NCBI RefSeq assembly: GCF_034259205.1
Contig: NZ_CP139487.1
Coordinates: forward strand, 1,798,001 to 1,862,000
Source of the DNA: Peredibacter starrii
GTDB lineage: Bacteria > Bdellovibrionota > Bacteriovoracia > Bacteriovoracales > Bacteriovoracaceae
Direction of reading: 5' to 3'
DNA length: 64,000 nt
The position numbers and the translations under genes are program-made. This document shows, in pieces, positions 664 through 64,000 of this stretch. A model generated the notes under the pieces. That model saw nothing but the letters and a program-made list of their open reading frames with translations, searched no databases and had not been told where the DNA came from. The stretch's first letter is position 1; every line of letters begins with the position of its first letter.

Positions 664-1518
664 TTAAATTCTTTCGTCGAAGGCCTCTAAGTACGCGCCT
701 CTGACTTCATCCATGTTGAATTTATCTTTTTGATATCCCCAGGAGTCGTACATCTGTAGGTCCGCCGGTTGATAAGTGTACATGTGTGTGCGGATGATGT
801 AGCACTCGCCTGTATAAGGGAAGTCAGCATATTCGCTGTACTTTGTGATGACCGGACAAGGGGCATCGTTACGCATGAAAATATTGGTCCACTTTGTGAA
901 TTCGATCGGGCCGCGGGAATATTTCACGTCCATTACTCGTTCAACCACTTTGTCTCCGTCCTTGATATGAACGTAAGGAGCAATGTGGAACCACCATTCA
1001 AAGTTGTAACGACGGATATAGGTACGAGTAAAGAAGATCAGGATCTTATTTGATTTTAAGCTGTGCTTTCTCCACCATTCATAACTCCAAACCATGGCAC
1101 GGTTAAAACACTGAGAGTCTTTTGGATTATAGCGTGCCTCTTTGAAATATTTCTTGGCGGTGTCCATGTCCTTGATAGTGGTAGGAACATACTCGCTGGT
1201 CGTGTTCATGGGAGTGAAGAACTTCTCATCTTCTTCTGGAGGCAGTGGTGGTGTTTCACTCGGATCCATTTTTACCACAAACCGATCATCATCCATAGTG
1301 AATGTGAACCAACGTCTGGCAGATTTTTCTGCCGTAAATTTTTTTAAAAGGGCCTGATCTTCACGTTTAACTTTCACGACATTCCCGCTCGTAAGGAAGA
1401 TCAGAATTTCATCTTGAGCAGTTTTACCGTAGTCGATGTCGTAAATTTGAGTCGTAAGTTGAGTACCAGCGAAGAGAGGCAAGCTCAGGAAACAAAACAG
1501 TAGTCCGAAAACACGCAT
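664..1518 (-). CDS. Secreted protein-glutaminase-like enzyme (Gln_deamidase_2 type)
   Basis: 284 aa. The ATG at 1518 is chosen because GGAGG lies just upstream and it starts directly at a signal peptide (MRVFGLLFCFLSLPLFAGT). The C-terminal half carries SQCFNRA (Cys137), WWFHIAPYV (His178) and RVMDVKYSRGP (Asp197). The 41- and 19-residue spacing is close to the C156/H197/D217 triad that I recall for Chryseobacterium protein-glutaminase, a papain-like enzyme that deamidates protein glutamines. By analogy it would act outside the cytoplasm on protein side chains; substrate unknown. The N-terminal ~120 residues resemble a pro-region, as in protein-glutaminase zymogens (inference). A paralogue with the same triad lies at 63044-63886, and both are followed by a CHRD-like lipoprotein. 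A transglutaminase or cysteine peptidase activity of the same fold cannot be excluded. Confidence 0.7.
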   Translation of the reverse strand: MRVFGLLFCFLSLPLFAGTQLTTQIYDIDYGKTAQDEILIFLTSGNVVKVKREDQALLKKFTAEKSARRWFTFTMDDDRFVVKMDPSETPPLPPEEDEKFFTPMNTTSEYVPTTIKDMDTAKKYFKEARYNPKDSQCFNRAMVWSYEWWRKHSLKSNKILIFFTRTYIRRYNFEWWFHIAPYVHIKDGDKVVERVMDVKYSRGPIEFTKWTNIFMRNDAPCPVITKYSEYADFPYTGECYIIRTHMYTYQPADLQMYDSWGYQKDKFNMDEVRGAYLEAFDERI

Positions 1519-61801: not shown

Positions 61802-62151
61802 GCAATCAAACCTGGCCCATCATTTTAAACTTTATTGCTTCCTTGTTGGGAGCGGTAGGGCAGTGGCTCTATAAGCTTGGCGCTAAAGACCTTAAAGAGA
61901 TACCGATATATAAAAACCTTCCTTTTTTAGGTGGCATGTTTTCCTTTCTCATTGTGATGGGGCTATTTATGGTGGCCTTCCGTCTTGGTGGAAGAATTTC
62001 AGTGACCTTTCCAGTTTATGCTTTGACTTTCGTCTGGGGCACTATGATTGGCGTGTTCGTTGATAAGGAACCATTCAATTCCATGCAGGCCCTTGGTGTG
62101 GGCCTGGTGTTTGTTGGTGTGGCAATTGTTGGTGGAATGGCAACGCGCTAG
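61798..62151 (+). CDS. Small EamA/SMR-like four-helix membrane protein
   Basis: 117 aa with four hydrophobic helices and the length of an SMR/half-EamA protein (similar to ArnE/ArnF or EmrE-like proteins): WPIILNFIASLLGAVGQWLY and VYALTFVWGTMIGVFVDKEP. SMR-like partners of lipid operons can flip lipid-linked sugars, which fits a lipid-synthesis context (inference). It is coupled to plsC by a 4-nt overlap and converges on the CHRD lipoprotein gene with a 4-nt overlap. Confidence 0.75.
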   Translation: MSNQTWPIILNFIASLLGAVGQWLYKLGAKDLKEIPIYKNLPFLGGMFSFLIVMGLFMVAFRLGGRISVTFPVYALTFVWGTMIGVFVDKEPFNSMQALGVGLVFVGVAIVGGMATR

Positions 62152-63035
62152 ATACTTCCAGTCTCCGGAGGGTCTATCTCGTTATCGTCCTCTCCATAGT
62201 TTCCGCCCGTAGAGGTCGTAGTCGTTGATGAAGCAAAGTCAGCTCCGTCGTCCACGCCACTTGATCCCCCAATGCTCTCACCACCTGGAAACTTGATTCC
62301 GGTTTGATCGTTATCAATTCTTCCTGGAACTGAAGTGACTTTAGAAATCACTCCACATGCGATGGGAATGGCCTGGAAATTCGTGAGTCTTCCACGAGGG
62401 GCGACAGTATCAGGTAGTGGAACGTCTTTTGAAACTCCAGTAATGATGATCACATTTCCTGAAAGTTGCAGCGTCTCATTGGCATTTAACTTAACGAAAT
62501 CATCCTGAAGATTAATGTCTTCTTCTTTTAGGTCAGTCATGAGCTTCTCAAAGTTTGCGACCTGAGAGTAGAAGTAATAACCATAATCATCGGCCACTGG
62601 AAATGTTCCCCAGCCCATGCGCTGGGAGTTTAGATCCTCATCCAGCGGAACAATAATTTCTTTATAGACTTCAGCGCCTTCAATGGCATCGATATAACCA
62701 TCTCGGTTAAGATCGTCATCCATCGTTGGACATCTTTTACCCACGTGAATATTTTGAACGTGAAGTATACCCGCCGGACCACCGGAGAATCTTACGTCGG
62801 CGACGAATTCATTTTTATCTTTAACGAGTGTTAAAGATCCATTTACGTCTTTTGAAAGAGTGGGATTAACCGGTCGAAGAAGTGCCTGATAGGTCCCCAT
62901 CATCTCTGTTTCAAGTGGATTAGGAACAGGAGGTTGCACAACTGGTTTACTTTCACTTCCTCCGCCGCCACCACCGCCATTACAAGAAACAAGTGAGGTC
63001 AGAAGAATTAAATGTGAGATTGCCTTACGATTCAT
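62148..63035 (-). CDS. CHRD-like lipoprotein with EF-hand-like loop
   Basis: 295 aa. ATG 63035 has AGGAG upstream. The signal MNRKAISHLILLTSLVSC ends in a lipobox (LVSC), followed by a glycine run. The domain at about 45-240 matches 1-651 and 56522-57481: LHVQNIHVGKRCP, the EF-hand-like DLNRDGYIDAIEG and IVPLDEDLNSQ. The C-terminus is Ser/Gly/Thr/Asp-rich (SSTTTTSTGGNYGEDDNEID). It lies 8 nt downstream of the glutaminase-like gene (63044-63886), mirroring the pair at 1-1518. The CHRD name is a resemblance judgement. Confidence 0.8.
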   Translation of the reverse strand: MNRKAISHLILLTSLVSCNGGGGGGGSESKPVVQPPVPNPLETEMMGTYQALLRPVNPTLSKDVNGSLTLVKDKNEFVADVRFSGGPAGILHVQNIHVGKRCPTMDDDLNRDGYIDAIEGAEVYKEIIVPLDEDLNSQRMGWGTFPVADDYGYYFYSQVANFEKLMTDLKEEDINLQDDFVKLNANETLQLSGNVIIITGVSKDVPLPDTVAPRGRLTNFQAIPIACGVISKVTSVPGRIDNDQTGIKFPGGESIGGSSGVDDGADFASSTTTTSTGGNYGEDDNEIDPPETGSI

Positions 63036-63043
63036 GGCTCCTC

Positions 63044-63886
63044 CTAAAGGGTAATGTCCATGGCCTCAAGGAAGGCCTGCTTAACTTCCGGTTCCATCCA
63101 GTGAGATTTTTCAATTCCAGTCAGGTCCCTTTGTTCAAGATCAACCGGCTGATAATAGTACATGCTGGATTTCATCACGAAACATGTTCCGCTCTCTGGA
63201 AAGTTAGCGTGATCAGAATATTTCTCAACCACCGGACAATCGGCATAGTCGCGCATGAAGATATCGGTCCAAGTCTTTAACTTAATCGGGCCTCTGGCAT
63301 ACTTAATATCCATTACTCGTTCTTTCATTTCGCCATTGATATTGACGTGGGCCATTGGTGCCACGTGGAACCACCATTGAAATTTAAATTTACGAATGTA
63401 CTTACGCGTGAAGAACAACCACACTTTTGAAGAGTAGAGTTGGTGTTTGATTCTCCAGTCATAGGCCCAGACATGGGCGCGATTAAAACATTGGGATTCT
63501 TTATGATTTGTTCTGGCCTCATAAAACATGGAACGCGCTTGATCCATGGATTTTAAGTAGGAAGGTCTATAAGGCGCGTCTGAGAAATGAAGCATCTTTT
63601 CATGTGAAGTGGGCAAGGGAGCGGCGATCTCTTCCAGTTTTAGGATCTCTCTCTTTTCATTTAAGGTGACGCGAAACCAGGTCTTCTTTTTAATCGCTTC
63701 ACGAAGTTGAAGCAGGACGTTTTTGTCGAAGTTCTTAAATCTCACCACGTCACCACTAGCAAGGAAGATCAAGGGTTCTTCATTGCCCTGAGCACCCATA
63801 TCGATATCATGTATCTGAGTTGATAACTGAGTATTGGCCATGAGGGGCAGCGATATAAGGACGAGAAGGAGAAGCAAGAAGCGCAT
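63044..63886 (-). CDS. Secreted protein-glutaminase-like enzyme, paralogue of 664-1518
   Basis: 280 aa from ATG 63886 (GGGAGG just upstream). Signal peptide MRFLLLLLVLISLPLMANT. The triad is conserved with the same spacing as the paralogue: Cys133 (SQCFNRA), His174 (WWFHVAP) and Asp193 (RVMDIKYARGP), 41 and 19 residues apart. Most conserved blocks recur: FFTRKYIRKFKFQWWF, RGPIKLKTWTDIFMRD, YQPVDL. The N-terminal segment is likewise probably a pro-region. Followed by a CHRD-like lipoprotein. Probably deamidates protein glutamine outside the cytoplasm; substrate unknown. Confidence 0.72.
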   Translation of the reverse strand: MRFLLLLLVLISLPLMANTQLSTQIHDIDMGAQGNEEPLIFLASGDVVRFKNFDKNVLLQLREAIKKKTWFRVTLNEKREILKLEEIAAPLPTSHEKMLHFSDAPYRPSYLKSMDQARSMFYEARTNHKESQCFNRAHVWAYDWRIKHQLYSSKVWLFFTRKYIRKFKFQWWFHVAPMAHVNINGEMKERVMDIKYARGPIKLKTWTDIFMRDYADCPVVEKYSDHANFPESGTCFVMKSSMYYYQPVDLEQRDLTGIEKSHWMEPEVKQAFLEAMDITL

Positions 63887-64000
63887 AAAACCTCCCATGG
63901 TTATGCGAAAAATCAGGAGCAATATTGTCTGAAAAGAAGCATCCCTGTCATCTAAAGCCTAACCAAAGCTAAGACACTTACTGCACCTGCATTAGGTACG

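Follow-up and report, generated by a model that had tools for sequence, protein, structure and literature searches.

Protein-glutaminases are known mainly as food enzymes. The structurally characterised members from Chryseobacterium proteolyticum (EC 3.5.1.44; PDB 3a54, 3a56 and 2zk9) and Flavobacterium (FBPG, 8z3i) are laid out as a signal peptide, a pro-domain and a catalytic domain. According to the accessible part of one study, the Chryseobacterium lactis enzyme has the triad C156-H197-D217, and the pro-domain of the known protein-glutaminase shields its active pocket (PMC13298967). The closest published gene architecture that we found for the locus described here comes from Bacteroides, where secreted papain-fold C10 proteases are transcriptionally coupled to staphostatin-like proteins encoded within a few bp; some of these are predicted lipoproteins and have been proposed to protect the producer (PMC3462683, in the part available). 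Our literature search, which covered mainly papers outside subscription journals, found no link of protein-glutaminases to Bdellovibrio or Bacteriovorax. Queries joining protein-glutaminase with superoxide dismutase (SOD), lipoprotein or operon gave nothing on the gene pair reported below among the best matches, and a related search returned mostly food-enzyme work.

The window (the whole 64,000-nucleotide stretch of Peredibacter starrii DNA analysed here) carries near its start a genuine reverse-strand gene, PG1, whose frame is open from 664 to 1530 with a likely ATG start at 1518 preceded by GGAGG, giving a product of 284 residues. The nearest named records are mostly metagenome-assembled genomes of the Bacteriovoracaceae, a family placed in the Bdellovibrionota that includes predators of bacteria. 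The features of PG1 are as follows.

664-1518, reverse strand: PG1, secreted protein-glutaminase-like precursor of 284 residues (PF18626 match, AlphaFold2 model, alignment with 3a56)
1468-1518, reverse strand: signal-peptide-like N-terminus, residues 1-17 (hydrophobic stretch ending in the AXA-like LFA, by eye)
1249-1467, reverse strand: N-terminal OB-like domain, residues 18-90, equivalent of the pro-region (model residues 1-75; aligns with 3a56, 3a54 and 8z3i)
1198-1248, reverse strand: low-confidence linker, residues 91-107, candidate proteolytic activation site (model residues 74-90, pLDDT below 50)
667-1188, reverse strand: catalytic domain, residues 111-284 (alignment with 2zk9)
1108-1110, reverse strand: codon of Cys137, the predicted nucleophile
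985-987, reverse strand: codon of His178, aligned to H197
928-930, reverse strand: codon of Asp197, aligned to D217

PG1 belongs to the same Pfam family as the Chryseobacterium and Flavobacterium enzymes, scoring 42.3 bits against PF18626 (Gln_deamidase_2; gathering cut-off 25, E 9.5e-11). Against the NCBIfam equivalog PG_glutam_Chrys it reaches 14.9 bits, below the cut-off of 250, and phmmer against PDB sequences recovers protein-glutaminase only at E 0.16; because of these two values we judge PG1, by sequence, to be a remote PF18626 member. By its equivalog score it is not an ortholog of the Chryseobacterium enzyme. A sequence profile (A1) searched against the PDB likewise gave protein-glutaminases at E 0.14 only. 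An AlphaFold2 model built from a 19-sequence alignment, numbered from after the first 17 residues, had a pLDDT of 86.4 and a pTM of 0.81. Foldseek against the PDB placed protein-glutaminases in all of the top 6 of 369 matches (E 8e-11 to 4e-5), these being all six at E <= 0.001. Model residues 1-266 superpose on residues 22-281 of pro-protein-glutaminase 3a56, pro-domain included (Z 16.1, 210 residues, rmsd 4.9), with comparable results for FBPG 8z3i (Z 15.4) and for mature protein-glutaminase 2zk9 (Z 12.8, 139 residues aligned, rmsd 3.2). PG1 thus resembles the solved enzymes in layout, triad spacing and overall fold including the pro-domain, while differing in its shorter pro-domain and in an identity of just 14-17% over the fold. 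In the model, the N-terminal domain consists of five strands and one helix. Its likeness to a toxin B subunit was discarded, as the AB5 B-subunit matches (Z < 8) reflect the common OB barrel and the domain aligns to the protein-glutaminase pro-region.

The putative triad comprises C137 in SQCFNRA, H178 in WWFHIAPYV and D197 in RVMDVKYSRGP, spaced 41 and 19 residues apart compared with 41 and 20 in C156-H197-D217. H178 and D197 align directly to H197 and D217 of protein-glutaminase in the phmmer alignment, and Cys137 is connected through a bridging paralog (L074) that aligns both to the protein-glutaminase cysteine in the PDB and, in the paralog alignment, to C137. All three positions are identical in the 12 PF18626 copies of this genome and do not vary among the 19 relatives that were aligned (C120/H161/D180 when the first 17 residues are left off the numbering), and the triad is therefore not a chance arrangement. 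The preliminary description, made from the letters of the DNA, had named these residues, motifs and spacings, which hold on the 284-residue frame, and had cited the C156/H197/D217 triad of the Chryseobacterium enzyme, which agrees with the accessible part of PMC13298967 and to which the PG1 residues correspond. Its signal peptide is visible by eye as a hydrophobic N-terminal stretch, its pro-region-like N-terminus is matched by the alignment with 3a56, and its reading as a protein-glutaminase-like enzyme agrees with the PF18626 score, the six best Foldseek matches and the fold. Computation therefore supports the fold, the triad and the pro-domain equivalence, and the model is best read as that of a secreted deamidase zymogen.

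PG1 is one of many. The genome (4.15 Mb, one contig) contains 12 PF18626 genes, all above the cut-off, ten of them beyond the two in the window, and the same search found none in 14 control genomes. Two copies that lie close together (L076:5183-8175; G000:C1:3849182-3852174) are 42.6% identical and keep the triad in products without the N-terminal pro-like domain. Every one of the 26 genomes of the genus (25 relatives and this one) carries PF18626, with 2-14 copies among the matches listed; a second survey, scoring at most 12 candidates, gives a mean of 6.8. Again among the matches listed, the 68 other genomes of the family with a match average 2.7 copies (maximum 10), and a genus of another family (g71) has 1-4 copies in each of its 24 listed genomes. 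In many other family genomes (G027:C1:2218108-2218410 and similar) the domain lies, among the matches listed, inside frames of ~510-730 residues, where it is probably fused to something else. The supposed rarity of such glutamine deamidases does not extend to this phylum, where at least 221 of 368 genomes have PF18626; what is unusual is the multi-copy state (12 copies here, 2-14 in the genus) and the co-inherited lipoprotein gene described next, both of them beyond the region that the preliminary description covered.

Downstream of PG1 lies a lipoprotein gene, LP1, whose Shine-Dalgarno sequence AAGGAG (660-665) overlaps the PG1 stop codon (664-666). A second complete pair, absent from the preliminary description, occupies 62148-63922 of the reverse strand.

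1-651, continuing beyond the window (G000:C1:1797344-1798651), reverse strand: LP1, lipoprotein of 435 residues, 12 bp after PG1
63044-63886, open from 63922, reverse strand: PG2, second PF18626 precursor of the window (43.5 bits, 46-47% identical to PG1)
62148-63035, reverse strand: LP2, lipoprotein partner of PG2, 295 residues, 8 bp downstream of PG2

Just past the window end (L067:5995-8687; G000:C1:1862994-1865686), four neighbouring proteins of 166-215 residues share a stretch of ~70-80 residues, 50-57% identical in most pairs.

Two further PGs of this genome (L073 and L075) have an LP partner, and 8 of the 12 have none downstream; at least 7 of its 14 LP copies are orphans with no PG next door, so the two genes are not strictly dependent on each other. 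Across relatives, LP is the next gene on the same strand for 60 of 136 PGs among the matches listed (genera g1 and g10 only, two entries from this genome added, compared with 150 LP entries), and a pair is seen in 11 of the 15 judgeable loci among 16 reference loci, one of which runs off its contig; the reference loci (L050-L065) overlap the surveyed genomes, so these two counts are not independent. With loci L098 and L103 added, all 26 genomes of the genus hold at least one pair. Both frames are complete in 48 of the 56 pairs fetched, and in these PG and LP are separated by a median of 1 bp. Distances among PGs and among LPs correlate at r = 0.89 over 59 pairs (the 56 fetched less L163, whose PG frame is split, plus four from this genome, with eight LPs being frames that run off the fetched stretch), a value to be read knowing that linkage alone yields correlated trees. 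When LPs were shuffled among the pairs within each genome, r never exceeded 0.38 in 2000 trials, and the nearest lineage in our genome agrees for PG and LP in 50 of 55 cases. The pairs span four paralogous lineages that diversified together. In the PG tree the paired genes form two clades that stay paired across genomes, and on 31 rows the paired state needs two changes, with several long branches leaving the order of events unsure. The PG/LP pair is a conserved, co-inherited genetic unit.

LP matches no Pfam family above the cut-off. The AlphaFold2 model of LP2 (13-sequence alignment, pLDDT 82) is a Cu/Zn-SOD barrel, with 89 Foldseek matches at E <= 0.001, the best 50 of which are all of the SOD fold (SOD, the SOD-like clock protein EA4 and CCS); it shares 116 aligned residues with Cu/Zn SOD (3km1, 9m58) at Z 11.4 and rmsd 2.5. 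The sequence profile of LP, searched against the PDB, gives chiefly EF-hand-loop matches at E >= 0.11. Among 67 LP sequences (59 paired and 8 orphan), the lipobox cysteine C18 and D108 of the EF-hand-like loop are present in all 67, and conservation is complete or almost complete for two more cysteines, the DxNxDGxIDxxE loop and Gln94. Unlike Cu/Zn SOD, LP has no Pfam SOD match, an added EF-hand-like loop and no conserved histidine metal site: at the positions which we take to be the SOD metal ligands the Cu/Zn histidines are not conserved across the 67, H92 (63 of 67, LP2 numbering) forming the sole near-conserved histidine column and H97 coming next (36 of 67). An active SOD was rejected on the ligands and the Pfam result. 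The cysteine pair and the CGVI end resemble the SOD disulfide. Gln94 was considered as a pseudo-substrate tied to pairing and dropped; it is invariant in all 59 paired LPs and in all 8 orphans as well, and so cannot be ascribed to pairing. Gln138 of the SQ motif is kept in only 47 of 59 paired LPs. Paired and orphan copies do not differ in their invariant residues, which gives no hint of a pair-specific interface. Two orphan lipoproteins of the SOD-fold family (L109:4523-5518 and L112:4591-5604) end in long, stalk-like low-complexity repeats (TTGG, GDN). Among the matches listed, every genome of the genus (26 of 26) has LP, as do 2 genomes of a single further genus, which brings the family total to at least 28 of 129 genomes; a search of 22 genomes belonging to other families in the phylum listed no LP.

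We infer from the above how the pair may work. PG1 would leave the cytoplasm by way of its signal peptide as a protein-glutamine glutaminase-like zymogen, its Cys-His-Asp site covered by the N-terminal OB-like domain. Cleavage in the disordered linker would free the catalytic domain, which would then deamidate glutamine side chains within proteins, the most plausible substrates in a predator being prey proteins or extracellular ones. The next cistron would, through apparent translational coupling, yield LP1, a membrane-anchored Cu/Zn-SOD-like barrel that carries an EF-hand-like loop. LP1 most likely binds the co-encoded PG1 and keeps its activity in check within the envelope of the producing cell. 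The inhibitory role is proposed by analogy with the C10-protease pairs of Bacteroides. Like Btp-Bti and Bfp-Bfi, and like staphopain-staphostatin, PG/LP would couple a secreted cysteine enzyme of the papain-like superfamily, present in several copies, to a putative inhibitor gene a few bp away (PMC3462683, in the part available); PG1, in contrast, is of the protein-glutaminase family, and LP, a putative inhibitor, is SOD-like and not staphostatin-like. Neither of the solved protein-glutaminase systems offers a parallel to a genome with 12 copies or to a downstream SOD-fold lipoprotein gene. That PG1 is a secreted protein-glutaminase-like zymogen we regard as very probable; the full proposal, in which LP1 is its self-protecting inhibitor, is tentative and falls a little short of an even chance.

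The enzyme could share the fold and catalyse something else, as a transglutaminase or a cysteine peptidase: triad and fold are common to transglutaminases and papain-like enzymes (PMC9396377 and PMC10318531, in the parts available), and the identity of PG1 to tested enzymes is low. With every significant PDB match a protein-glutaminase and the pro-domain matching too, we consider this very improbable. It might instead be a purely nutritional exoenzyme that aids the digestion of prey protein, LP being incidental. An amino-acid permease (PF13520; 1874-3238, forward strand) is divergent from PG1 and adjoins it, and the relatives in L051, L052 and L054, their relatedness judged from N-terminal sequence only, apparently have it as a neighbour too; in most of the 16 reference loci no such neighbour is seen, and digestion would leave both the multiplied, distinct lineages and the pair unexplained, which makes this account quite improbable as well.

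Self-protecting inhibition is, by the Bacteroides analogy, the most likely role for LP, and anchoring is its main rival. There, PG1 would still be a deamidase, with LP anchoring or escorting it at the outer membrane of the predator, perhaps in a Ca2+-dependent way, and the enzyme acting at predator-prey contact. The invariant lipobox cysteine and EF-hand-like loop fit such a role, some LP copies bear long low-complexity tails like surface stalks, and stoichiometric coupling and co-inheritance suit it equally well; the eight PGs without LP and the existence of orphan LPs speak against it, and we hold it to be unlikely. The same eight PGs and orphan LPs count against a strictly dedicated inhibitor. 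LP might also have a job of its own, for instance as a Ca2+-binding envelope protein of a degenerate SOD type, with the unit kept only by shared regulation. The orphans, at least half of the LP copies in this genome, and the equal conservation of paired and orphan LPs would favour this, while pairing retained in four paralogous lineages and in all genomes of the genus at a median 1-bp spacing speaks against it; we deem it rather improbable.

Returning to the inhibitor proposal, LP may, in a wider and more doubtful extension, be the founding member of a protein family that inhibits protein-glutaminases or confers immunity to them. Such a protein would be an envelope-anchored SOD barrel with a degenerate metal site and a calcium loop, and would allow a predatory lineage to maintain its multi-copy deamidase arsenal in four co-evolving cognate pairs. 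If LP is indeed an inhibitor, its fold would be new among inhibitors, and it could serve to control an industrial enzyme. A lineage from a family of predators with up to 14 protein-glutaminase genes, some of them with a conserved gene partner, offers a direct route to the role that these enzymes play for the bacteria that make them.
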